A stretch of 39,070 nt of DNA from Streptomyces sp. XM83C (GTDB taxonomy: Bacteria > Actinomycetota > Actinomycetes > Streptomycetales > Streptomycetaceae), in contig NZ_JALLGL010000021.1 in the NCBI RefSeq assembly GCF_023072675.1, forward strand, positions 1-39,070. The letters are read 5' to 3'. How positions within the stretch are numbered: position 1 is the first letter of the stretch; each line of letters starts with the position of its first letter. The notes below the pieces were generated by a model that ran no database searches, was not told the DNA's origin, and saw only the letters and a list, made by a program, of their open reading frames with translations. Below, one piece after another: positions 7,704 to 19,979 of this stretch. The position numbers and the translations under genes were made by a program.

Positions 7704-10700
7704 ATGAGCGCAGACGGCACGGCACGCACGCCGGATCCCAAGCTTGCCGAACTCGCCCGGACGTCACGCAACTTCGGCTTTCTGTACGACCATCTGCCGC
7801 TCCTCGTCGCCTACGGCACGGCCGCCGAGGCCCATGTCTTCACCGACCCCAACACCTCGCTCATCAAGTCCCGTCAGTTCGGTGAGGCCCTCGCCTCCGA
7901 CCTCGTCCGGCGCGGGCGTGTCCAGTACACCGGCAGCAAGCAGGCCGAGCGCCTGGAGGCCCTGGATCGTGAGGGCTATCTCCACGGCAATGTGAAGGCC
8001 GCGTTCCACGAGGTCCGCATACTCGGGAACAAGGCCAATCACGAGGGCTACGACAGCCCCGAAGACGCTTTCCGGGCGCTGCGCACCTGCCACCGCCTCG
8101 GCGTCTGGTACTACCGGCTGCTCACCGCTTCCCGCGAGCAAAAGCCTTTCATCCCCCCGAACCCGGCGCGTACTCCGGCTGCCGAGAACGAGGAGCTGCG
8201 CGCTCAGGTCGAGCAGGCACGCAGGGCCCTGGAGGAGGCCTGCCTGACCTATGAGGGCAAGGCCACGCAGGCGCAGGCCGAACAGGCCGCCCGTGCGGCC
8301 GCAGAGCGGGAGCTGGCCGCGGCCACCGCCGAGCGCGAGGAACTGGCCCGCCAGGTCGAGGCCATGCGCGACCAGCTCGCAGCCCTCCAGCAGGCACAGT
8401 CCGACAACGACAACCGCCTGCTGCGCGCGCAGGCCACCAGCCCGGCCGCCGCCTCCGAGGCCGTGGCGGAACGCGCTCGGCTGCTGGACAACGCCGAGCA
8501 GGCCGCCCGTGAGCCCCTCACCGAGGCCCAGGTGCGCACGCGCCTGGACGAGATGCTCACCGAGGCCGGCTGGAGCGTCCAGGACGGGGGCGCCAACCTC
8601 AACCTCCATGTGCAGGGCGACCGGCGCGGCAACGGTGTGGCCGTCCGTGAGGTGACCACCGCGAAGGGCCGGGCCGACTACGCCCTGTACGTGGAGCACA
8701 AGCTCGTCGGAGTGATCGAGGCCAAGCGGGAGGGGGCCGACCTGACCGCCGCCCAGGCACAGGCCGACCGGTACGCGGACCACCCCACCGACGCACAGCA
8801 GCGCCTGATCGCCTGGCGCACACCACTGCCGTTCCGCTACGTCTCGGACGGTGGCGAGACCCGGTTCCGCAACAGCCTCGACCCGGACTCGCGCACCCGG
8901 CGCATCTTCTCCTTCCACCAGCCCCGCACCCTCGCCCGGTGGATCCGTCAGGCCGAGCAGGACCCCCAGGCCCCCTCGTACCGCGCCCGGCTGCGCTACC
9001 GGATGCCCGAGCTCGACGAGCGCCCGCTCCGTCCCGCGCAGATCAAGGCGGTGCGCGGCGTTGAGGAGTCCGTCGCGCTCGGCAAGGGGCAGCAGGGCAC
9101 CGGACAGTCCCGCTCCCTGGTGCAGATGGCGACCGGTGCGGGCAAGACCTACACGGCGGTCACGTTCGCGTACCGCATGCTCAAGTACGCCCAGGCCGAG
9201 CGTGTCCTGTTCCTGGTGGACCGCAACAACCTGGGCGCCCAGGCCCAGACCGAGTTCGAGAACTTCACCACCCCCGACACCAACCGCACCTTCGCCGACC
9301 TGTTCAACGTGCAGCGCCTGGGCGCTGAGGGGATGAACCCCTCCGCGAAGGTCGTCGTCTCCACGGTGCAGCGCCTGTACATGGAGCTGACCGGTGCCAG
9401 CGTGCCCACGCAGACGGGCACGGACGGCGAGGAGGAATACGCCTACGATGTGCCGGGCGACATCGCCGTCGGCTACAACCGGGACATCCCGCCGGAGTCT
9501 TTCGACCTGATCATCGTCGACGAGTGCCACCGTTCCATCTACGGCAAGTGGCGCTCCGTCCTGGAGTACTTCGACGCGCCGATCGTCGGCCTGACCGCGA
9601 CACCCGTCGCACAGACCTTCGGCTACTTCAACGGCAACCTGGTCAGCGAGTACACCTACCAGGAGGCCGTCGCCGACGGCGTCAACGTCGACTTCCAGGT
9701 CTACGAGATCCTCACCCGGATAACGGGCCAGGGCGGAGTCATCGCCCGGGGCACCATCCCCGTCCGCGACCGGCGTACCCGCCGGCAGCGCTACGAGGAC
9801 TTCGACGAGGACGTGACGTACGGCGCCAAGGAAGTGGGCGTCGGTGTCATCAGCAAGGACCAGCTGCGCACGGTGATCCGCACCTTCCGCGAGCGCCTGT
9901 TCACCGAGATCTTCCCCGAACGCGCCAAGCGCGACAAGGAGACCGGTGAGCTGCTGTGGGACGAGATGTACGTCCCCAAGACCCTCATTTTCGCCAAGAA
10001 CGACAACCACGCCGAGGAGATCGTCGAGGTCGTCCGGGATGTCTTCGGCAAGGGCGACGACTTCTGCACGAAGATCACGCACGCGGCCAAGAAGCCCGCC
10101 GAACGCCTCTCCGACTTCCGCAACCTCCCGCAGCTGCGCATCGCGGTCACCGTGGACATGATCGCGACCGGCACGGACGTCAAGCCGCTGGAGTGCCTCC
10201 TCTTCCTGCGTGACGTCAACAGCTGGGCCTACTTCGAGCAGATGAAGGGCCGGGGCGCGCGGACCCTGTCGCTGACCGAGTTCGAGCGCGTCACACCTGG
10301 GGTCGGCCCCAAGACGCGCTTCGTGATCGTCGACGCGGTGGGAGTGACCCGCAAGCCGAAGGTGGACGCGGGCCCGCTGGAGCGGCACACGGAGAAGGAC
10401 CTCAACCTGGAGAAACTCCTCCGCCTGACCGCCCGGGGCATCGCGGAGGACGAACACGTCTCCACCTTGGCCTCGCGCCTCGCCAAGCTCGACCTCCAGA
10501 TGACCGACGAGGAACGGGCCGAGATCGAGACCCTCAGCAACGGCGTGCCCCTGAAGACCATCGTGCACAACATGGTCGAGGCCGTATCCGTCGACGAGCA
10601 GGCCAGGACCCGGGAGGCCGCGGAACAGCTCGGCCTCGATCCGGACAAGGCCGTCAGGTCCTTGGTCGAGCGTGCCCTGCTGCCGTTGGCGTCCAACCCC

Positions 10701-11384
10701 GCTTTGCGGAGCCGGCTGCTGGAGATGCGCCGCGCGAAGGACATCCTGTACGACGAGACCAGCCGCGACGCCCTCGTGTCCGCCGGCGCCGTCGCGGAGG
10801 ACGAGTCGACGGCGCATGACACCGTCCGGGACTGGAAGGCGTACGTGGACGAGCACCGGGACGAGATCGCAGCGCTCTCCCTCGCCTTCGCCGCAGGCTC
10901 GCAGGTACCTCCGCGCGAGGCCCTCAGGCGCCTCAAGGACCTGGCACGTTCCGTGGCCCGCCCGCCGCGTTCCTGGACACCGGACCGGCTGTGGCGTGCC
11001 TACGAGCAGGTGGGCGAGGCAGTGGCAGCGGACCGTTCCGCCGCCCGGACGGCGGCTGACCTGCTCGCCCTGCTGCGGTACGAACTGGCGGGCGGCGCGG
11101 AGAACGGCGCCGAGCCGCCCCGCCCCCACCAGGAGGCGGTCCAGGAGCGGTACGCGGCCTGGCTGGCTCGGCAGGAGCAGGCCGGTGTGACCTTCACCGA
11201 GGCCGAGCGCTGGTGGCTGGACCACATCGTCCGTGCGACGGTCGACCGTGTACGCTTCGACACCGCCGACCTCGACTACGCCCCATTCACCAAGCGGAAC
11301 GGCACGGACGGCTTCCTCGCGGAGTTCGGTGAGGTGAGGGCGGAAGAAATCCTCGACGAACTGGACAGGGAGCTGGGCGCGTGA
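7704..11384 (+). CDS. hsdR: Type I restriction endonuclease subunit R (HsdR)
   Basis: This 1226-residue subunit is the motor and nuclease of a type I restriction complex: it translocates DNA with ATP and cuts away from the unmethylated site. In order it has an N-terminal domain like DUF4145 (about 1-150; KAAFHEVRILGNKANHEGY), a long Ala/Glu/Arg coiled coil (about 165-275), and the nuclease core with D325 and E339-A-K341, a PD-(D/E)xK pattern. The helicase motor follows: motif I MATGAGKTY at 475-483, motif II DECH at 606-609, motif III LTATP at 630-634, and a C-terminal domain like that of EcoEI HsdR (WWLDHIVRATVDRV region). No lesion is seen. A weak AGAGAG precedes the ATG. Its stop overlaps the hsdS start by four bases (GTGA), so R and S are translationally coupled. 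Confidence 0.95.
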   Translation: MSADGTARTPDPKLAELARTSRNFGFLYDHLPLLVAYGTAAEAHVFTDPNTSLIKSRQFGEALASDLVRRGRVQYTGSKQAERLEALDREGYLHGNVKAAFHEVRILGNKANHEGYDSPEDAFRALRTCHRLGVWYYRLLTASREQKPFIPPNPARTPAAENEELRAQVEQARRALEEACLTYEGKATQAQAEQAARAAAERELAAATAEREELARQVEAMRDQLAALQQAQSDNDNRLLRAQATSPAAASEAVAERARLLDNAEQAAREPLTEAQVRTRLDEMLTEAGWSVQDGGANLNLHVQGDRRGNGVAVREVTTAKGRADYALYVEHKLVGVIEAKREGADLTAAQAQADRYADHPTDAQQRLIAWRTPLPFRYVSDGGETRFRNSLDPDSRTRRIFSFHQPRTLARWIRQAEQDPQAPSYRARLRYRMPELDERPLRPAQIKAVRGVEESVALGKGQQGTGQSRSLVQMATGAGKTYTAVTFAYRMLKYAQAERVLFLVDRNNLGAQAQTEFENFTTPDTNRTFADLFNVQRLGAEGMNPSAKVVVSTVQRLYMELTGASVPTQTGTDGEEEYAYDVPGDIAVGYNRDIPPESFDLIIVDECHRSIYGKWRSVLEYFDAPIVGLTATPVAQTFGYFNGNLVSEYTYQEAVADGVNVDFQVYEILTRITGQGGVIARGTIPVRDRRTRRQRYEDFDEDVTYGAKEVGVGVISKDQLRTVIRTFRERLFTEIFPERAKRDKETGELLWDEMYVPKTLIFAKNDNHAEEIVEVVRDVFGKGDDFCTKITHAAKKPAERLSDFRNLPQLRIAVTVDMIATGTDVKPLECLLFLRDVNSWAYFEQMKGRGARTLSLTEFERVTPGVGPKTRFVIVDAVGVTRKPKVDAGPLERHTEKDLNLEKLLRLTARGIAEDEHVSTLASRLAKLDLQMTDEERAEIETLSNGVPLKTIVHNMVEAVSVDEQARTREAAEQLGLDPDKAVRSLVERALLPLASNPALRSRLLEMRRAKDILYDETSRDALVSAGAVAEDESTAHDTVRDWKAYVDEHRDEIAALSLAFAAGSQVPPREALRRLKDLARSVARPPRSWTPDRLWRAYEQVGEAVAADRSAARTAADLLALLRYELAGGAENGAEPPRPHQEAVQERYAAWLARQEQAGVTFTEAERWWLDHIVRATVDRVRFDTADLDYAPFTKRNGTDGFLAEFGEVRAEEILDELDRELGA

Positions 11385-12811
11385 CGCTGGGGCTGGATAC
11401 GGCTGTGGGGGACGGGCCCCAGGGGCCTGATGGCCCCGAGGCACCTGCTGGGGGAGCTTCTGGGGAGCTTCCGCCGGGGTGGGCACGGGCGACGCTGGGG
11501 GAACTCGGTGAGTGGTTCGGCGGTGGCACACCGTCGAAGAAACGTCCGGAATTCTGGACTGACGGCACCATTCCCTGGCTCTCTCCCAAGGATATGGGGC
11601 CCGATATCCTCGCAGCGACGCAGGACCTCATCCACGAATCCGCACTGGATGCGTCACCTGTGAAACTGGTACCGGCGGGATCTGTCGCTCTGGTCGTTCG
11701 CTCCGGCATTTTGGAGCGCAAGGTCCCTGTGGCTTATGTGCCCTTCGATGTGACGCTCAACCAGGACATGAAGGCGGTTGTCCCGCATCATGGGATCGAT
11801 GGTCGCTGGCTGTCCTGGGCCATTCGGGAACGCGAGCGGTACATTCTGGAGAACTGCCGTAAGCATGGCACAACGGTCGCCTCGCTTGAGGTGCCCTGGC
11901 TAATGAGCACTGAAGTCTTGGTGCCGCCATACGAGGAGCAGCTTCGGATTGTAGCCGAGGTGGAACGGCAGATTGCCCATATCTCACTCGGGGAACTCGC
12001 AGTTGATCGGGCGCGTCGTGAAATCACACACTTGAAGAGTGCAGTGCTCGAACGATCTCTGATCGAGGCGGCATCGTCAGGGCGATTGCTTAAAGACCTA
12101 ATTTCGGAGCCGCTGGCAAACGGGAAATCAGTGCCCACGTGCGATGGTGGTTTCCCTGTCCTGAAGCTCAACTCGATTCGTGGGACGTTGGTTGACCCAT
12201 CGATTCAAAAGGGTGGAGACTGGGAGGGTATCGACCCCAAGAAGTACTTGATTGCTGAGGGTGACTTCCTTGTAGCTCGCGGAAATGGGACGCTGTCTCT
12301 CGTAGGGCGCGGTGCGTTGGTGCCCGAGGTTCGCTCGCCTATCGCCTACCCTGACACTTTGATCAGGGTCAGGGTTGACATGGATAAGTTGTCTCCCGTT
12401 TACCTCGGACTGGTGTGGAATTCCCGAAGCGTTAGGGAGCAGATCGAGAGGCAAGCGCGCACTACGGCTGGGATTTACAAGATCAACCAAGCCATCCTGG
12501 AAAATATAGAGATTCCGTACGTTCCCTTGAGAGATCAGCAGTTGCTGGTTGAAGAGGTATCTCAGGCTTATGCCGCCTTTGAGCCTTTCGCTGATGAGGT
12601 CGACAAAATCCGGTCCTCTTCTTCACATCTTCGTGCCGCTCTCCTCCAAGCCGCCTTCACCGGCGCCCTCGTGCCCCAGGACCCCGCCGACGAACCGGCA
12701 TCGGCACTGCTCGACCGGATCCGTGCCGAGCAGAAGGCCAAGGCGCCCCGCAAGCGCGCCGTCCGTAAGCCCCGCTCCACCCCGCCCGGTCAGGAAGAAC
12801 TGCCCTCATGA
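11381..12811 (+). CDS. hsdS: Type I restriction-modification specificity subunit (HsdS)
   Basis: This 476-residue subunit chooses the bipartite DNA target of the restriction-modification complex. It has the usual two-fold layout: target recognition domain 1 (about 25-170, with GTPSKKRPEFW and IPWLSPKDM), a spacer helix region (about 175-225, EEQLRIVAEVERQI), recognition domain 2 (about 230-375), and a second helix (RDQQLLVEEVSQAY onward) ending in a basic tail. The start is a GTG overlapping the hsdR stop; its own stop overlaps the hsdM ATG by four bases (ATGA). Base composition is the odd feature. Counted lines inside the gene give 52% GC (12241-12300) and 45% GC (12481-12540), against 67% in hsdM (13321-13380). 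This fits frequent exchange of recognition domains. The target sequence cannot be predicted. Confidence 0.94.
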   Translation: MTLGLDTAVGDGPQGPDGPEAPAGGASGELPPGWARATLGELGEWFGGGTPSKKRPEFWTDGTIPWLSPKDMGPDILAATQDLIHESALDASPVKLVPAGSVALVVRSGILERKVPVAYVPFDVTLNQDMKAVVPHHGIDGRWLSWAIRERERYILENCRKHGTTVASLEVPWLMSTEVLVPPYEEQLRIVAEVERQIAHISLGELAVDRARREITHLKSAVLERSLIEAASSGRLLKDLISEPLANGKSVPTCDGGFPVLKLNSIRGTLVDPSIQKGGDWEGIDPKKYLIAEGDFLVARGNGTLSLVGRGALVPEVRSPIAYPDTLIRVRVDMDKLSPVYLGLVWNSRSVREQIERQARTTAGIYKINQAILENIEIPYVPLRDQQLLVEEVSQAYAAFEPFADEVDKIRSSSSHLRAALLQAAFTGALVPQDPADEPASALLDRIRAEQKAKAPRKRAVRKPRSTPPGQEELPS

Positions 12812-14421
12812 GCACCACCCCCGCCCCAGTGAACAGCGCCACCGCTCGCCGGTCCGCAGGAGAGACGACCTCGACGCTCGTCAACCGTCTCTGGTCGTAC
12901 TGCGAGCTGCTGCGCCACTCCGGGGTCTCCACCCTCGACTACGTCGAGCAGCTGACCTACCTCCTCTTCCTGAAGATGGCGGACGAGCGGGCCAACCGTC
13001 CCGCGAGATTCCGCAAGAACGAGCCGGAGGAACCGCTCGTCCCCGTAGGACTGGACTGGCCCAGCCTCACCAGCCGGTCGTCCGAGGACCTCCTGGAGCA
13101 TTACGAGCACATCCTGCGGGAGCTGGGCCGCAAGGGCGGCACCATGCTCGGCGAGGTCTTCACCAAGGCGCAGAACAAGATCCACGAGCCCGCCGTTCTG
13201 GACCGGCTCGTCAAGGACCTGATCGACCCCTACACCTGGACCCGCGAGAACCAGGACCTCAAGGGCGACGCCTACGAAGGGCTTCTCCAGCGCGGCGCCG
13301 AGGACCGCAAGACCGGCGCGGGCCAGTACTTCACCCCCCGGCCCCTCATCGACGCCATGGTCGACTGTGTGCAGCCCAAGCTTGGTGAGACGATCACCGA
13401 CCCCGCCTGCGGCACCGGCGGCTTCCTCATCGCCGCGCACGCTCACATCGTCGAGCGTTACGAGGACCAGCTCTACGGTGACCAGGCCCGCAAACTCCAG
13501 ACGGGAGCCATCACCGGTTACGAGCTGGTGCGGGAGACCGCCCGGCTGGCGCTGATGAACATGCTCCTGCACGGCATCGGTACCTCTGACGGCCGTCCCC
13601 TGATCACGGTCCAGGACTCCCTGGCGAAGTCGCCGCACAAGTTCTACGACATCGTGCTCGCCAACCCGCCCTTCGGTGTGGGTTCCGTTACCGGCGAGGC
13701 GTACAGCGCCCGCAAGGACTTCTGGACCCAGACCACCAACAAGCAGCTCAACTTCGTCCAGCACATCTACACCCTGCTGAAGACCAACGGCCGGGCCGCA
13801 GTCGTCCTGCCCGACAACGTGCTGTTCGAGGGCGGGGCCGGCGCGGAGATCCGCCGCCGCTTGCTGGACCTCACCAACGTCCACACGCTGCTTCGGCTGC
13901 CCACCGGCATCTTCTACGCCAACGGCGTCAAGGCGAACGTCCTGTTCTTCGACAAGGTCCCGCCCCGACCTGGTGGCAAGCCCGCCACCAAGCAGCTGTG
14001 GGTCTACGACTTCCGTACCGACCAGCGCTTCACCCTCAAGCAGCGTGCCTTGCGCCGCGAGCACCTGGACGACTTCGTCGCCGCCTTCCACTCCGGGGGC
14101 ACGGACTACTCGGCCCGAAAGCCCAGTGAGCGCTTCCAGCCGTATGAGTACGATGAGCTGATCGCACGCGACAAGGTCAACCTCGACCTGACGGTGCTTC
14201 AGTCCGCTTCCGCCTCCTCTGCCCCGCTCGCGCCCCCGGACGTGATCGCTCAGGAGATCGTGGACGAACTGGAAAGCGCGTTGGCCGAGTTCACTGCCGT
14301 TGCCCAGGCCCTGAAGAAGGCCGTCGGCACGACTGCCGACGTCGAAGCGGATCCGGCCGCGGGCGACCGTGCGAACAGCACCACCACTGGCACCACCGAA
14401 GAGACAGACCAGGAGCGGTAG
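12808..14421 (+). CDS. hsdM: Type I restriction-modification methyltransferase subunit (HsdM, first copy)
   Basis: This 537-residue protein is an N6-adenine DNA methyltransferase that with HsdS protects the host's sites. The N-terminal helical HsdM_N domain (STLDYVEQLTYLLFLKMADE, about residues 45-64) is followed by the catalytic domain. Motif X is GQYFTP (172-177), motif I is DPACGTGGF (198-206), and motif IV is NPPF (286-289), the signature of amino-methyltransferases. All key residues are present. A C-terminal tail rich in Ala, Thr and acid residues (about 505-537) has little predicted structure. The ATG overlaps the hsdS stop, giving the coupled order R-S-M. It is followed after 83 bases by a second, diverged M gene that aligns along its whole length. 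Confidence 0.95.
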   Translation: MSTTPAPVNSATARRSAGETTSTLVNRLWSYCELLRHSGVSTLDYVEQLTYLLFLKMADERANRPARFRKNEPEEPLVPVGLDWPSLTSRSSEDLLEHYEHILRELGRKGGTMLGEVFTKAQNKIHEPAVLDRLVKDLIDPYTWTRENQDLKGDAYEGLLQRGAEDRKTGAGQYFTPRPLIDAMVDCVQPKLGETITDPACGTGGFLIAAHAHIVERYEDQLYGDQARKLQTGAITGYELVRETARLALMNMLLHGIGTSDGRPLITVQDSLAKSPHKFYDIVLANPPFGVGSVTGEAYSARKDFWTQTTNKQLNFVQHIYTLLKTNGRAAVVLPDNVLFEGGAGAEIRRRLLDLTNVHTLLRLPTGIFYANGVKANVLFFDKVPPRPGGKPATKQLWVYDFRTDQRFTLKQRALRREHLDDFVAAFHSGGTDYSARKPSERFQPYEYDELIARDKVNLDLTVLQSASASSAPLAPPDVIAQEIVDELESALAEFTAVAQALKKAVGTTADVEADPAAGDRANSTTTGTTEETDQER

Positions 14422-14504
14422 CCCGGCCCTCAGTCCTTTGGCCGCCCGGCCCAGAGGGCCCGTCGGCGGCCACTCCGGGAACTGACACAGGGACTGGGTG
14501 AAGC

Positions 14505-16004
14505 ATGGTCTACGGGTTCGGCCGAGGCGACGGCGCGGCGGGGGCGGGCACTCCACCGGAGAGGTCCTGGACGGGCGAGGAGATCGCTGCACGGCTCTGG
14601 AGGTTCTACAACGAGAAGACCAGTACCCGTGCCATCACGCGACTCGGGTTCGTGGAGCATGTCGGCTATCTCCTCTTCCTCAAACTGGACCATGAGCGCT
14701 CCCAGCGCCCCGGTAGGTTCGCCCGGAAGTCCGTCGCCCCTGAGGGCACTTGGCCGAGGCTGACCGATCTGAGCGGCGACGCCTTGCACTCCGGTCTCAC
14801 CGATCTCATGCGGGAGCTCGGCGACCAGGCCCCTGCCCGTTCCGACCGGCAGACCGCCGGCATGGTCTTCCGCGACGCCCAGCCCTGGGACCTCGACCGC
14901 ATGGCCGAGCTGGCGATGCTGATCACCGAGCAGATCGATCCCTACGCGTGGCGCCTCGTACCCCAAGCCGAACTGGGGCGCGCCTTTTCGATCATGTTGC
15001 GTGACTGCCGCGAGGACATCGACCGGAAGATCGAAACAGGCCAGACGCTGACGCCGTTCCCTGTCCTGAGCGCAGTCGTCAAGGTGCTCGACGTGCGGCC
15101 CGACGACATCGTCATCGACCCGGCGTGCGGCACCGGCTCGACACTCATCGCGGCCTACCAGGCGATGCAGTCCACGGATCCGGCCGCCATCGCGGGGGCC
15201 GATCTGGACGCCCAGATGTGCCGACTCGCCACCATGAACATCCTGTTCAACACAGGCCGGCCGTTCTCCGATCCCGCTCCGGTGAAGCTCGCGGACACCC
15301 TCACGCGCAAGGTCCCGGTCGTGCGGGCGGATTCCGGAGTCCTCCCCACCGTGGCCATCTGCAACCCGCCCTTCAGGAGCGACGGTGTGGTGCCCAACGC
15401 CACCATGCGGGACGACTTCCTGGCCTACGGCGACTTCCCCACCAACTTCCTCCAGCACCTGATGGTCACCTTGAAGCCGGGTGCCAGGGCGGCCGTGTTC
15501 GTCCCCGACGGAGTGCTGTTCGGTGGAGGCGCTGCGGCTACCGTACGACGGGCGCTGTTGAAGAACTGCGATGTGCACACACTCCTGCGGCTTCCCACGG
15601 GGATGTTCCACCGCAAGGGCGTGAAGTCGAACATCCTCTTCTTCACGAAGGCCACCCCCAAGCCGAACGGTCAGCCCGTCACCCGGAATCTGTGGGTCTA
15701 CGACGCCCGCACGGGCAACCACCGTACGGACACCGGAAACCCTGTCACCGAAGAGGACTTCGACGACTTCGTCAACGCATGTCTGGCTGGCGGAGACATC
15801 TCAGAGCGCACCGAGTCGGACCGCTTCCGCCGCTACCCGGTGGGCGACCTGCTGGACCATCCGACTGTGAGCTTCAACCTCGATGCCTACCTCGCAGCAG
15901 AGGTGGTGGACCTCGGCTCCCCGAAGGAGATCGCCTCCGAGATCGCGGACCTGCTCGACACCGCGGCCAAGCACTTCCGGGAGGTCGCGGCGGCTCTGCC
16001 GTAG
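14505..16004 (+). CDS. Second, divergent HsdM-like DNA methyltransferase subunit
   Basis: This 499-residue protein aligns with the preceding HsdM over both domains: RLWRFYNEKTSTRAITRLGF matches the N-terminal helices, and RLPTGMFHRKGVKSNILFF matches the conserved region after the catalytic core. Motif I is DPACGTGST (205-213) and motif IV is NPPF (287-290), so SAM binding and catalysis look possible. Motif X, GQYFTP in the first copy, is GQTLTP here (179-184): both aromatic residues have gone. The region between the two domains is shorter and more diverged. The gene is on the same strand, 83 bases after the first M gene, and a perfect palindrome follows the stop, so it is probably the last gene of the operon. 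No second HsdS or HsdR is present. It may be a partner subunit, a separate methylase, or a decaying duplicate; the intact frame argues against decay. Confidence 0.85.
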   Translation: MVYGFGRGDGAAGAGTPPERSWTGEEIAARLWRFYNEKTSTRAITRLGFVEHVGYLLFLKLDHERSQRPGRFARKSVAPEGTWPRLTDLSGDALHSGLTDLMRELGDQAPARSDRQTAGMVFRDAQPWDLDRMAELAMLITEQIDPYAWRLVPQAELGRAFSIMLRDCREDIDRKIETGQTLTPFPVLSAVVKVLDVRPDDIVIDPACGTGSTLIAAYQAMQSTDPAAIAGADLDAQMCRLATMNILFNTGRPFSDPAPVKLADTLTRKVPVVRADSGVLPTVAICNPPFRSDGVVPNATMRDDFLAYGDFPTNFLQHLMVTLKPGARAAVFVPDGVLFGGGAAATVRRALLKNCDVHTLLRLPTGMFHRKGVKSNILFFTKATPKPNGQPVTRNLWVYDARTGNHRTDTGNPVTEEDFDDFVNACLAGGDISERTESDRFRRYPVGDLLDHPTVSFNLDAYLAAEVVDLGSPKEIASEIADLLDTAAKHFREVAAALP

Positions 16005-16068: not shown

Positions 16069-16263
16069 TCAGTCCGCAGCCGCGAAGCCCACGAACGCCG
16101 CCCAGCCGGCCGCGTTCACGGAGAGATGCGGCCGGTGCACGTCCTTGGAGTCGCGGATATAGACACTTCCCGAGGTGGCGGCCACTTCCACGCACTCGCC
16201 TCCCTCATTGCCGCTGTAGCTGCTCTTGCGCCAGACGAGCTGTTGGGAGTTCTCAGCACTCAT
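16069..16263 (-). CDS. DUF397 domain protein
   Basis: This 64-residue protein carries the DUF397 signature: [18 protein letters not shown] near residues 11-28, VYIRDSKD near 34-41, and WAAFVGFA at the end. DUF397 proteins are very numerous in streptomycetes and are usually encoded beside a WhiJ-like XRE regulator, often with an ATPase, as here. Known roles of the group are in control of development and antibiotic production; the molecular action is not settled, though a partner role to the regulator is commonly proposed. The start overlaps the end of the XRE gene by 11 bases, so the two are co-translated on the minus strand. It ends 24 bases from the palindromic terminator of the restriction operon. 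Confidence 0.92.
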
Positions 16264-17137
16264 CTTCCGTCTGCATCCTCTCGATCAAGGCCAGAGACTC
16301 TCGCGGAGTGAGTGCCTGGGCCCTGATGCTGCCGTAGCGTGCGGCCAGGATACGGACCTCGTCCATGTCTGTGACCAGGCGTGCGACGGCCTGCACTTCC
16401 GTATATCCCACCTGAGGCTTCCCCTTCGGGGTCAGCAAGGTGAACGGACCGCCCATACCAGCGTGCTCGGTCCGGTCCGTGGGCATCACCTGCAACTCGA
16501 CTGTGCGGAGCCGCCCGAGTTCGAGCAGTCGGTTCAACTGCTCCTTGTGCACCTCGCGCCCTCCGATCGGCCGACGAAGCACTACTTCCTCGATCACCGC
16601 GGTCACCATGGGAGGGGGCCACTGGGTCAGGATCTCCTGGCGACCCATCCTGGAGGCCACGCGTTGTTCAACGGTTTCTTCGTCGAGCAAGGGCTTCCGC
16701 ATCTCGTACAGTGCACGGGTTCGTCGCTCGGTCTGGAACAACCCGGGAATGTCGTGGTTGTTGTAGAAGTTGACCTCGACCGCCTCCGCCTCCAGCCGCG
16801 CGTAGTCCCGGAACCACGCCGGGTGCCGGACCCGTGCGCGGGCCTTCGCCCGGGCCACGTCCTCCTTCGTCACCTTCAGCAGCCCTCCGGCACCGAGCAG
16901 GTCGTCCGCCGCGTCGAGGAACTCCGGCTGGGGTGTTCTGCGGCCCCGCTCCAGGGAGGAGATGAGATCCTCGCCGTAACCCAGCCGGTCACCCAGCTCC
17001 TTCTGGGTCAGGCCGGCTCGCTCCCGCAGCAGCTTGACCTGCCTCCCCACAGCCCGGTTCAGGTCGAGGAGGCCGTCCGTGTCCTCCTGGGGCTCGGGGC
17101 GGTCTCCGGCGCCGCTCCGACGAGGCTCCGATGCCAT
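16253..17137 (-). CDS. XRE-family helix-turn-helix regulator with DUF5753 domain (WhiJ-like)
   Basis: The protein is about 294 residues long. The N-terminal helix-turn-helix (about 30-80) reads [18 protein letters not shown] then a recognition helix and [12 protein letters not shown], a classical Cro/C1 domain. The rest is the DUF5753 domain: [18 protein letters not shown], a segment with RMGRQEIL, and [16 protein letters not shown]. Members act as DNA-binding regulators in streptomycetes, the best known being WhiJ in aerial development. The ATG at 17137 was chosen over the adjoining GTG at 17140 because GGGGGA lies 6 bases upstream. It is divergent from the HATPase gene, with 139 bases between them that should hold promoters for both. 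It could regulate itself and the trio, and possibly the adjacent defence genes, but no operator is identified. Confidence 0.93.
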
Positions 17138-17276
17138 CACTCATCCCCCAACCCGCCTGGCCGTCGGCCGGTTACTCCCGTCAGCACGGACACGCAACCG
17201 TCAGCGGCGGTACAGGCGTGTGCCGTACCGATGGTTCCTCTGGTCAGCGTACGACCATCTGGACACGCTCTGTCAC

Positions 17277-17762
17277 ATGAAGTACGAAATCCGTGACCAG
17301 TCCCATGTGGCCCGCTGCGTCACCTCTCCCGCGCCCTTCATCCAACGGTTCAGCTCGACGCGGCGTGGAGCGCGCCTCGCGCGCCTGCTCGCGACCCAGC
17401 AGTTGGCGGACTGGGGGTGGGCCAGGGGCGGTGAACATCTGGAGGCCGCCGAGCTGGTGGTGGGCGAGCTCGCCGCGAATGCGGTTACACATGGACTGGT
17501 GCCCGGGCGGGACTTCATGCTCACGATGACCCTCACCCCGTTCCCTGAAGGCTGCTCCGGCATCCTCCGGATCGAGGTCGCGGACTGCCGGGGAGAGCGG
17601 CTGCCCACCCTGGCGGAGGCGCCCTGCCCGAACGGCGAACATGGACGAGGGCTGCTGCTCGTGAGCGCGCTCGCTTCCCGGTGGGGTGTCACACCCCGGT
17701 TTCCCTCGGGCAAGACCGTGTGGGCCGAGTTGCAAGGGCCGCAGGGAACAGACGACGCGTGA
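17277..17762 (+). CDS. HATPase-domain ATP-binding protein (anti-sigma/AbaA-associated type)
   Basis: The 161-residue protein has a single GHKL ATPase fold. The N box is ELVVGELAANAVTHG (about residues 58-72), the G1-type residue lies in RIEVADCRGERLP, and the G2 box is HGRGLLLVSALASRWG (about 121-136). This matches the small RsbW-like ATP-binding proteins of streptomycetes, which bind and block sigma factors or phosphorylate partner proteins; many are companions of WhiJ/DUF397 pairs, as here. The ATG at 17277 was chosen because the conserved part begins shortly after; the frame is open further upstream but lies in the divergent promoter region. The start lacks a strong ribosome binding site. 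It converges with the AIPR gene, ending 42 bases from it. Partner proteins cannot be told from sequence. Confidence 0.88.
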   Translation: MKYEIRDQSHVARCVTSPAPFIQRFSSTRRGARLARLLATQQLADWGWARGGEHLEAAELVVGELAANAVTHGLVPGRDFMLTMTLTPFPEGCSGILRIEVADCRGERLPTLAEAPCPNGEHGRGLLLVSALASRWGVTPRFPSGKTVWAELQGPQGTDDA

Positions 17763-17804: not shown

Positions 17805-19979
17805 CTACGACAGGTGGTCGTCCGCCTCCGGCTCCTCCCCGGCCGCGATCCGCTGCCAGAGCCGCTCGGCGATCTCCACGAGCGTTCCTTCCCCCGGCAC
17901 ACGCCACTGCTTGGGGCCCTGGACCGCGCTCCACTGCTCCTTCCAGTCCGCCTCGTTCCACATCTGGGAGACCAGCCCGGTCGGAGAGTAACGCCGGCCG
18001 TCGGCCTCCCAGAGAAGCGGCGCCTTGCGGTCGTTCACCCAGCTGGCACGACGACGCCGGGGATCGGCGTTGAGCCAGGCCCCGATGGCGAATTCCTCCG
18101 CAGCGCTGGGGGCGTACTCCAGAGGCGTACCGTCCTTGATCACGTCATGGTCCACGAGCAGGCGCACGGTCGGAGGCCTGCGCTGCCGTGTCTGCCCGGC
18201 AACCTTCAAGAGTGCGGCCAGATTCATGGGAGAGTCCGGCCCGTCGCCGCGTTCGAGCGTGCCGAGCACCGCCGATACCAGGCGCGCGCAGCGTTCCTCG
18301 TTCGCGAACGTGCTGGTGACGTAGCTTGCGGGGGTGAAAAGGGTATCGACGAGACTGATCAGAGCCGCCAACACCTGGCTCACCTGGTTCGGGATATCCG
18401 CGAGTACGCCCTCCCACTCCCGGTCGGAGTCTTCGAACCGGTCCCGCCCGATGCGCTGGAAGACCAGGTGGGCGACGAGGAGAGCCCCACTGTCCGCGAT
18501 GGCGGCCGGCCGTCCGGTGAGCTTCGCCCGGGTCTTCGTCAGCTCGTCACGTACCAGGCGCAATACCTGGACCGCGCGCCAGATCTGCTGAGCGCTCGGC
18601 TGTTGCCCGAAGAGACGCGTGTAAGCCCCGTTGGGCCCTTCGCTCCACAGGACGTTGGTCGAGCCCTTGACCCGGACGGCGAGCGACGAGTCCCGGTGCA
18701 TACAGGCCAGGGCGGTGGCCGCCTCTGTGACCGAGCAGCCCGACTCGGGTGCGGGGTCCAGCTCGCCCCTGCGGAAGACATATTCCTTGTCGAGGGAGAT
18801 ACGGAAGTCCTTCTGGATCTCGCTCTGAACGGGGTCGATGGCGATGAAGTCCCGGCGCTCCATGTGGTTCTGCGTGTTGGTGGCCTTGGTGATGGAATGA
18901 CCGAAGCCCTCCGGCGCCCCCTCCAGGGAGATGACGCGCACCATCACGTAGGCCTCCGCGACGGCGTCCGGGTCCTTCTCGTACGCCCGAAATGCCGAGG
19001 TGACCGTCTGTGCGCCATTGACGACGCTGGCGTTGCTCAGGGTGAGGATCGTCGGCTGCCCCACCGCTCGTTTGAGGGGATACTCCTGCACGATGTCGTC
19101 GCACTGCACCGTGATGCCGTTGTGGCGGTAGAGGAAGCCCTCGGGATCTTCCAGCATGGAGTCGACCATGGTCTGGTTGACTCCGGTGAGTCCGAGGGAG
19201 CGGCGGACGTTACGGTCGTAGAGGCGCTCGCCGTGCCCCTCGTGCTCGCCGTTGCCGCCGTACCAACGCGCCAGCTGGTCCGCGCTGACCTCACCGATCA
19301 CTGCCTTGAACGGGGTCTCGCGGGCGTACCACTCCCGGTTCATGGTCGCCTTGAGCGTGATCGGCTGGGGCTTGAGGTCTTCTCGGATGGCTCGATGGAA
19401 GTCGGCCTGGTTCACCACCCGGTACGTGACGGTCCGCCCGAGTCCGCCGAACTCACGGGCTGCCTCGTCCAGGATGTCGCGGGTCTCCTGGGAGAGGCGG
19501 CCGTCTCCCATCAGCGCGATGACCAGGTACACCTTGCAGGTGGGGAGCCGGAGGACACCGTGGACGCGGTCGGAGAGGAGCTGCAGCCGTTCGTTGAAGT
19601 GGTCGAGGTCGCGGTTGTCGAGCTTCTTCAAGCCGTGCACCAGCTTGAGGGCTGCCGCCGTGTCGAAACCGGCTGTCCCCTTGTCCTTCCACTTGGCCTG
19701 GATCAGATAGATCTCGGAGCCCGATGCAGAGAACGCCACACAGTCGATACCGAAGTCGTCACGGCCGTCGATGACCCCGGCCGCGGCCTCGTCAGAGGTG
19801 CAGTCCGTGAGGATGCGGGCCGCCTTCGCGGAGACGGCCCTCGACAACAGTGCCGTCTCGCGCTCCTTGGGGTCCTTCTTCTCGAAGTCCTCCATGGAGA
19901 TCCGCTGTCCGAACTCCTTCAGCAGCGCCTTCCGGATGTGCTGAACCTCCAGCGGCACGTCCTGCCCGCCCTGTCCCAT
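17805..19979 (-). CDS. AIPR-family protein (abortive infection phage resistance)
   Basis: This is a 724-residue protein. The N-terminal part (about 1-200) has a restriction-endonuclease-like pattern: GID (D79) followed by EIYLIQAKWKD with Q94-A-K96, resembling the D-(E/Q)xK core of Mrr-type nucleases. The middle (about 250-560) is the AIPR domain, with RNVRRSLG, a helix with MLEDPEGFLYRHNGITVQC, and VVNGAQTV (319-326). The last part (about 604-695) contains IKDGTPLEY, LLWEADGRRYSPTGLVSQ and WKEQWSAV, which by eye resembles RAMA-like domains thought to read DNA modification. AIPR proteins are named from phage-resistance loci and often lie beside restriction systems. Its own candidate promoter is at 20001-20029; a G-run lies just before the ATG. 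Nuclease activity and phage defence are inferences from motif and location. Confidence 0.88.
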   Translation of the reverse strand: MGQGGQDVPLEVQHIRKALLKEFGQRISMEDFEKKDPKERETALLSRAVSAKAARILTDCTSDEAAAGVIDGRDDFGIDCVAFSASGSEIYLIQAKWKDKGTAGFDTAAALKLVHGLKKLDNRDLDHFNERLQLLSDRVHGVLRLPTCKVYLVIALMGDGRLSQETRDILDEAAREFGGLGRTVTYRVVNQADFHRAIREDLKPQPITLKATMNREWYARETPFKAVIGEVSADQLARWYGGNGEHEGHGERLYDRNVRRSLGLTGVNQTMVDSMLEDPEGFLYRHNGITVQCDDIVQEYPLKRAVGQPTILTLSNASVVNGAQTVTSAFRAYEKDPDAVAEAYVMVRVISLEGAPEGFGHSITKATNTQNHMERRDFIAIDPVQSEIQKDFRISLDKEYVFRRGELDPAPESGCSVTEAATALACMHRDSSLAVRVKGSTNVLWSEGPNGAYTRLFGQQPSAQQIWRAVQVLRLVRDELTKTRAKLTGRPAAIADSGALLVAHLVFQRIGRDRFEDSDREWEGVLADIPNQVSQVLAALISLVDTLFTPASYVTSTFANEERCARLVSAVLGTLERGDGPDSPMNLAALLKVAGQTRQRRPPTVRLLVDHDVIKDGTPLEYAPSAAEEFAIGAWLNADPRRRRASWVNDRKAPLLWEADGRRYSPTGLVSQMWNEADWKEQWSAVQGPKQWRVPGEGTLVEIAERLWQRIAAGEEPEADDHLS

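Follow-up and report, generated by a model that had tools for sequence, protein, structure and literature searches.

A predicted nuclease of the AIPR family with a RAMA-like tail is linked to type I restriction-modification genes in Streptomyces and its relatives

That AIPR proteins lie beside restriction-modification (R-M) genes is already known: in the passages of the literature consulted here, AbiU1/AIPR is described as a frequent neighbor of R-M systems (PMC3506569), an R-M association is likewise given (PMC2292703), one AIPR case accompanies a type I system (PMC5379612), and a tie between restriction and suicide has been proposed, in part from gene neighborhoods (PMC3506569). The stretch of DNA analyzed here over its whole length of 39,070 nucleotides (the window; Streptomyces sp. 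XM83C, contig NZ_JALLGL010000021.1) carries an AIPR gene whose product was predicted to begin with an Mrr-like core and to end in a RAMA-like domain, and it raises the question of whether such a protein could link the modification state of DNA to an abortive response. By modeling, the product combines a nuclease fold, an AIPR core and a tail of the RAMA fold, and its tie to type I R-M completes a combination that is new as a variant; among the matches listed in a literature search covering mainly papers outside subscription, none dealt with AIPR and RAMA together.

The open reading frame itself is borne out by translation. It lies on the minus strand, a detail absent from the original prediction, and comprises 724 codons plus stop between an ATG start and a TAG stop. 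All quoted strings are present, namely D79, Q94-A-K96, HNGIT, NGAQTV, IKDGTPLEY (residues 614–622) and ADGRRYSPTGLVSQ (residues 659–672), as is the Trp-rich C-terminal end with eight Trp beyond residue 590. A Pfam scan of the protein returned no match besides AIPR at E ≤ 1, and a search of PDB sequences with the whole protein gave no match. Close intact relatives exist, such as an AIPR protein of Streptomyces sp. CB01373 with 91% identity. The protein alignment holds 49 sequences, the window protein and the 48 of 78 intact relatives retained by an 85% identity filter; excluded were L075 (five stops) and L101 (partial, one stop). A full-length model based on these 49 sequences (mean pLDDT 85.9, pTM 0.49) yielded no Foldseek match at E ≤ 0.001, the top of the list consisting mostly of transporters and other noise, and was then compared by VIA against 1000 chains.

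The adjoining R-M operon is also real: HsdR, HsdS, HsdM and a second N6 methylase occupy positions 7704–16004, all on the plus strand (Table 1). The AIPR gene faces this operon with three genes in between, and the block has lepA and an AMP-binding gene at one end and a SpoIIE-type phosphatase gene at the other. Two adjacent N6 methylases, as at 12808–16004, are common per system in related loci, where the NPPF motif as searched is absent from 12 of the 82 methylase genes. A MADS-type kinase/AAA neighbor was sought in the window and none was found; kinase and AAA neighbors in some other loci match the mad6 and mad3 profiles, but other profiles match them better, and MADS was rejected.

Table 1. 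Coordinates of the AIPR gene, its predicted domains and neighboring genes in the window.
Feature	Position	Strand	Evidence or remark
HsdR, type I restriction subunit	7704..11384	+	profile searches
HsdS, specificity subunit	11381..12811	+	profile searches
HsdM, N6-adenine methylase, NPPF motif	12808..14421	+	profile searches, motif search
Second N6 methylase, HsdM-like, NPPF motif	14505..16004	+	profile searches, motif search
DUF397 protein, between R-M operon and AIPR gene	16069..16263	-	
Helix-turn-helix/DUF5753 regulator	16253..17140	-	also beside several close AIPR relatives
Histidine-kinase-like ATPase (HATPase_c_2), convergent with AIPR gene	17220..17762	+	Pfam; start is a gene-caller prediction
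AIPR-family protein, three-part architecture, 724 aa	17805..19979	-	ORF, Pfam, alignment
Predicted RAMA-like domain, C-terminal, modeled as residues 588–716 (MPND match 601–710)	17832..18218	-	fold and profile comparison
AIPR domain (PF10592), residues 255–484; HNGIT 286–290, NGAQTV 321–326	18528..19217	-	Pfam
Predicted PD-(D/E)XK nuclease-like domain, ~residues 24–204, D79/Q94/K96	19368..19910	-	model, FokI match, conservation

The AIPR domain with its two strings is confirmed by a Pfam score of 117.7 bits, far above the gathering cut-off of 25 (E 1.1e-33). This core is common to AbiU, whose PADLOC model matches all 49 aligned sequences and covers residues 59–392 of the window protein, the D-QxK region included. 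The AbiU model has 537 positions and the 50 untailed relatives surveyed below measure mostly 560–680 aa, whereas the window protein adds the RAMA-like tail. The core is likewise common to MzaE of the MZA system (residues 247–390), but with 40.9 bits against an NCBIfam equivalog cut-off of 1050 the window protein falls below the threshold for membership. In fold, residues ~219–382 weakly match ParB-N (Z 5.5) and SspE (Z 4.1) by VIA, with VVNGAQTV of the core aligning to VVDGQQRL; this is a weak likeness to SspE/GmrSD and ParB, from which the nuclease of the window protein differs. A profile of the middle domain scored 0.4 against ParB_N (28 rows) and 1.1 against GmrSD_N (27 rows), with its own shuffles reaching 8.2 and 4.1, a comparison of little power since GmrSD_N against ParB_N itself scores only 1.7. 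Because the fold likeness is weak and the profile tests failed, a nucleotide switch in the AIPR core is only an idea.

The N-terminal domain of the full-length model places D79 just ahead of the strand 80–83 and both Q94 and K96 on the strand 89–96, preceded by a helix at 37–58. D79, Q94 and W97 are conserved in 49 of 49 aligned sequences and K96 in 48, with Arg in L082. FokI is the best structural match by VIA (Z 9.1 for residues 24–204; 142 residues, 3.3 Å), the range matched in FokI being 196–561, which presumably starts ahead of the FokI cleavage domain. Second are Mglu entries, which are not nucleases (Z up to 7.0 over residues 74–193), and lower matches comprise HamA of Hachiman (6.5), CdiA-CT toxins (6.1 and 5.9), EcoT38I (5.9) and HindIII (4.9). 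Model, VIA matches and conservation agree that the D-QxK residues lie at strands of a PD-(D/E)XK-type fold. The geometry behind the predicted Mrr-like core is thus supported, while for Mrr specifically the support is weak: the profile comparison with Mrr_cat (PF04471) covered 27 columns at a probability of 43.5%, with 50 shuffles reaching at most 1.0, and FokI is the closest solved fold among the VIA matches listed. With its catalytic-type residues conserved on a PD-(D/E)XK-type fold, the N-terminus is regarded here as a predicted nuclease. This modeled assignment differs from that in passages of PMC3506569, where the AIPR N-terminus is ascribed to a HEPN domain. The window protein is probably not alone in having the nuclease-like part, since a loose search for the motif D...(E/Q)xK found a Q(A/S/V)K triplet within residues 1–160 in 24 of the 50 untailed AIPRs.

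Structure prediction and profile comparison of residues 588–716 recover the RAMA fold that had been proposed by eye for the C-terminus. The tail, modeled with 48 relatives (pLDDT 90, pTM 0.81), was compared by VIA with 57 chains and matches MPND (7ydw, Z 9.5 over 89 aa at 2.3 Å; 7ydt, Z 9.4) and residues 268–357 of CcrM (6pbd, Z 8.7), the next fold being SAND domains at Z ≤ 5.1. MPND was also matched by the full-length model at residues 601–710 (Z 9.1) and ranked first in a Foldseek search with the tail model (E 0.022, probability 0.99; no match at E ≤ 0.001). Furthermore, the tail profile aligns 93 columns in order with 17 RAMA domains from the bacterial family of the window at 93.2% probability (P 3e-7), or 92.2% (P 5.9e-7) when built from 49 sequences; the controls, consisting of N-terminal and middle profiles, nine tiles, a reversed profile and 50 column shuffles, reached at most 1.9%. 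Residues W635, W647, W657, D660, Y664, L669, G688 and W692 are invariant in the 49-sequence alignment. The Pfam RAMA model (PF18755, gathering cut-off 35.2 bits) does not match the tail of the window protein even at E ≤ 10 and matches 6 of the 49 tails weakly (best E 0.0073). The commonest weak Pfam match of the tails is in fact DUF4880 (9 of 49, best E 0.00088), which was taken as chance. The tail shares with the RAMA domains of MPND, CcrM and PF18755 the fold and the patterns DG..[YF].SPS and G...W in the same order, but has about 20 additional residues with a conserved Trp and an RR pair. Being below the Pfam cut-off, it is filed as RAMA-like rather than as a member of PF18755, and the models point to a divergent subfamily.

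The same subfamily, extra Trp included, ends proteins with a NucS_C-like part, so that two kinds of nuclease-like protein seem to carry it. Among five scanned tail-bearing proteins of this second kind, NucS_C is matched by four at E ≤ 0.005, in each case under the Pfam cut-off, and not by the fifth (L325); two of the five show an alkyltransferase-like match, also under the cut-off. In the Streptomyces-family proteins L031 (5552–6970, minus strand) and L033 (4198–5772, plus strand), NucS_C-like and RAMA-like parts are followed by an O6-methylguanine-transferase-like C-terminus (Pfam, below cut-offs), and L032, L035 and L037 show this architecture by eye, while L034 and L326 have the first two parts only. 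To judge from their domains, these three-part proteins are possibly lesion- or modification-directed nucleases. Finally, L038 (7239–7709, minus strand) is a stand-alone protein of 156 aa with ~69% identity to the window tail.

What RAMA domains read is still debated (passages of PMC9963953 and PMC11037411). The domains of MPND and CcrM were identified as RAMA and bind DNA independently of sequence and without base-specific contacts, and a preference for 6mA is given as unconfirmed for the MPND domain (PMC9963953, in part). RAMA-nuclease fusions (RAMA-Mrr-NTPase, GIY-YIG-RAMA) may, according to one proposal, read 6mA in type IV restriction (PMC11037411, in part). They likewise join RAMA and a nuclease in one chain, but the window protein differs from them by its AIPR core, its domain order and its type I R-M context. 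Excerpts of other papers describe a DUF3780-RAMA fusion (PMC12839542) and, in an author note, mention studies of RAMA-HNH fusions (PMC12707154). RAMA and GmrSD_N (PF03235) share open frames in G030, G018 and G009 (RAMA loci L046, L058 and L044; GmrSD_N loci L252, L246 and L265); lying in the same long frames (726, 754 and 862 aa), RAMA seems to be fused to a type IV-type domain there.

Genes for the tailed form of AIPR lie in close physical linkage with those for N6-adenine methylases and type I R-M. A survey of 297 genomes of the bacterial family of the window gave 90 AIPR rows, of which one fragmentary row (G268) was dropped and the partial untailed genes L165 and L189 were kept, leaving 39 tailed and 50 untailed AIPRs; no open reading frame at the 50 untailed loci matches the tail profile. 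An N6 methylase gene (PF02384, counted at E ≤ 1e-17, with some contigs ending inside 10 kb) lies within 5, 10 and 15 kb of 16, 27 and 30 of the 39 tailed AIPRs, respectively, as opposed to none of the 50 untailed ones at any of these distances (Fisher P 8e-14 at 10 kb, without correction for descent). Under a laxer threshold counting all listed rows, a single untailed AIPR qualifies (G026, a 1394-aa frame ~3 kb away) and no tailed case is added. Genomes with tailed AIPRs average 3.1 methylases and those with untailed AIPRs 1.6, an excess that, being only about twofold, cannot alone make the gap. R-M is not obligatory, as no PF02384 gene lies within 15 kb of 9 of the 39 tailed AIPRs and 12 of the 80 loci considered next have a kinase and no R-M gene.

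Among 80 named actinobacterial loci (L061–L140), a methylase is present in 55 and any M, S or R gene in 63, while 41 have a Ser/Thr kinase (e.g., L118, 15383–16951), the 12 without M, S or R being among these, and five have neither M, S, R nor kinase. These counts are circular, since the models were built from neighbors at the same loci, whereas the PF02384 test is free of this circularity. Applied to the 50 untailed loci, the same models gave one methylase, three HsdR-like matches and one kinase, with 45 loci lacking any match. The kinase of one scanned locus is of the PD-T4-6 type (Pfam, PADLOC), and at six loci a DUF7019 protein lies directly upstream of AIPR with a kinase downstream (e.g., L082, 9168–9911). 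L075 (10001–12005, Streptomyces dysideae) holds the broken AIPR copy with HTH and ATPase genes nearby; Hsd-like genes were sought in the fetched stretch and none matched.

On a quick tree of 47 proteins, the tailed proteins form one clade in which three tailless members (L175–L177) are nested beside the tailed L194, and no methylase was found within 15 kb of these four. The cases of linkage are therefore not independent events, and the correlation of tail and linkage is weak as an evolutionary test because the tail state changes only twice; a reading as many independent events was rejected on the same grounds. To judge from the tree, a joint inheritance of tail and linkage is possible. Among 22 viral loci, the match ends at or before residue 587 in 21 and spans residues 7–706 in the remaining one (L297), and the M, S, R and kinase models find no match in any of them.

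As a whole, the gene neighborhoods support a link of the tailed AIPR to methylation systems, and, going by the predicted folds, the window protein is most likely a nuclease directed to DNA that serves type I restriction systems as an accessory. Our preferred explanation, to which we give somewhat better than even chances, is that the tail docks the enzyme, the AIPR core switches it and the N-terminus cuts, with the state of R-M or methylation as the cue. The tail would bring the enzyme onto double-stranded DNA, where local methylation or the R-M-bound state would probably be sensed; the core would act as the switch, possibly in a nucleotide-dependent manner if the ParB/SspE-like resemblance is real, and the N-terminal domain would then cleave DNA. 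Since the host genome should carry the linked type I methylation, the simplest scheme would have the enzyme silent on DNA that is self-methylated or occupied by R-M. Unmethylated DNA, or a type I complex disabled by phage, would release it, and the released enzyme would destroy phage DNA or kill the infected cell, which is the least certain step.

The protein could instead be a self-standing abortive-infection nuclease of the AbiU/AIPR type, its tail a non-specific DNA anchor and the R-M genes merely sharing a defense island. The uniform AbiU match, the sequence-independent DNA binding of MPND and CcrM (PMC9963953, in part), the frequent adjacency of AbiU1/AIPR and R-M reported in passages of PMC3506569 and the 12 of 80 loci with a kinase and no R-M gene all fit this reading, which we nevertheless consider rather doubtful: within one bacterial family, an N6 methylase lies near 27 of 39 tailed but 0 of 50 untailed AIPRs (1 of 50 at the laxer threshold), and at 17 of the 79 loci with a called AIPR gene an M, S or R gene runs in the same direction no more than 150 bp away. 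Such near-abutting genes suggest shared operons, and an M, S or R gene is the direct neighbor of AIPR in 30 of the 79 loci.

To an equally doubtful degree, the protein could be a restriction guard. PrrC, which adjoins EcoprrI, offers an analogue: by this analogy, the type I complex would hold AIPR inactive until disabled by phage, and the tail would touch the complex or its DNA rather than a methyl group. In six loci (L108, L111, L113, L125, L127 and L130), a methylase gene lies directly upstream of AIPR after R and S, co-directional and with gaps of 0 to 109 bp, as expected of such a partnership. Close AIPRs also accompany different type I systems, the type of the window in L061–L068 and L071 and another in L070 and L072–L074 (L069 has a kinase and no R-M), which suggests repeated re-association; yet this change of partners, while showing that AIPR keeps such company, would need contacts conserved across different type I systems.

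A more specific form of the preferred explanation assigns the cue to the methyl group itself: the tail would read the adenine methylation of the linked type I system and hold the AIPR-controlled PD-(D/E)XK nuclease off, and loss or absence of the mark, or a type I system disabled by phage, would unleash it. We hold this methylation-gated version to be unlikely as it stands, a shade below the two alternatives above. Least probable of all is a type IV-like enzyme that cuts foreign-modified DNA with its tail recognizing a base modification of the phage instead of the host's, which the RAMA-nuclease fusions proposed as possible 6mA readers (PMC11037411, in part) and the frames shared by RAMA and GmrSD_N would suit but which by itself fails to explain why host N6 methylases, whose product the enzyme would then attack, are linked to it.

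What is new here is the difference in methylase linkage between tailed and untailed AIPRs (27 of 39 versus 0 of 50 within 10 kb), along with the co-directional, near-abutting R-M genes at 17 of 79 loci. A tail modeled on the RAMA fold, a predicted nuclease fold and, in some genomes, methylase genes are united in one apparent operon, so that the tie between restriction and suicide and the reading by RAMA domains are both testable with one protein and one deletion, for which the tailless relatives L175–L177 provide natural controls. The AIPR-RAMA protein may tie methylation to a last-ditch defense of the cell; should the methylation-gated version hold, it would join R-M to abortive infection as a module recurring in actinobacteria, in many cases together with a Ser/Thr kinase.
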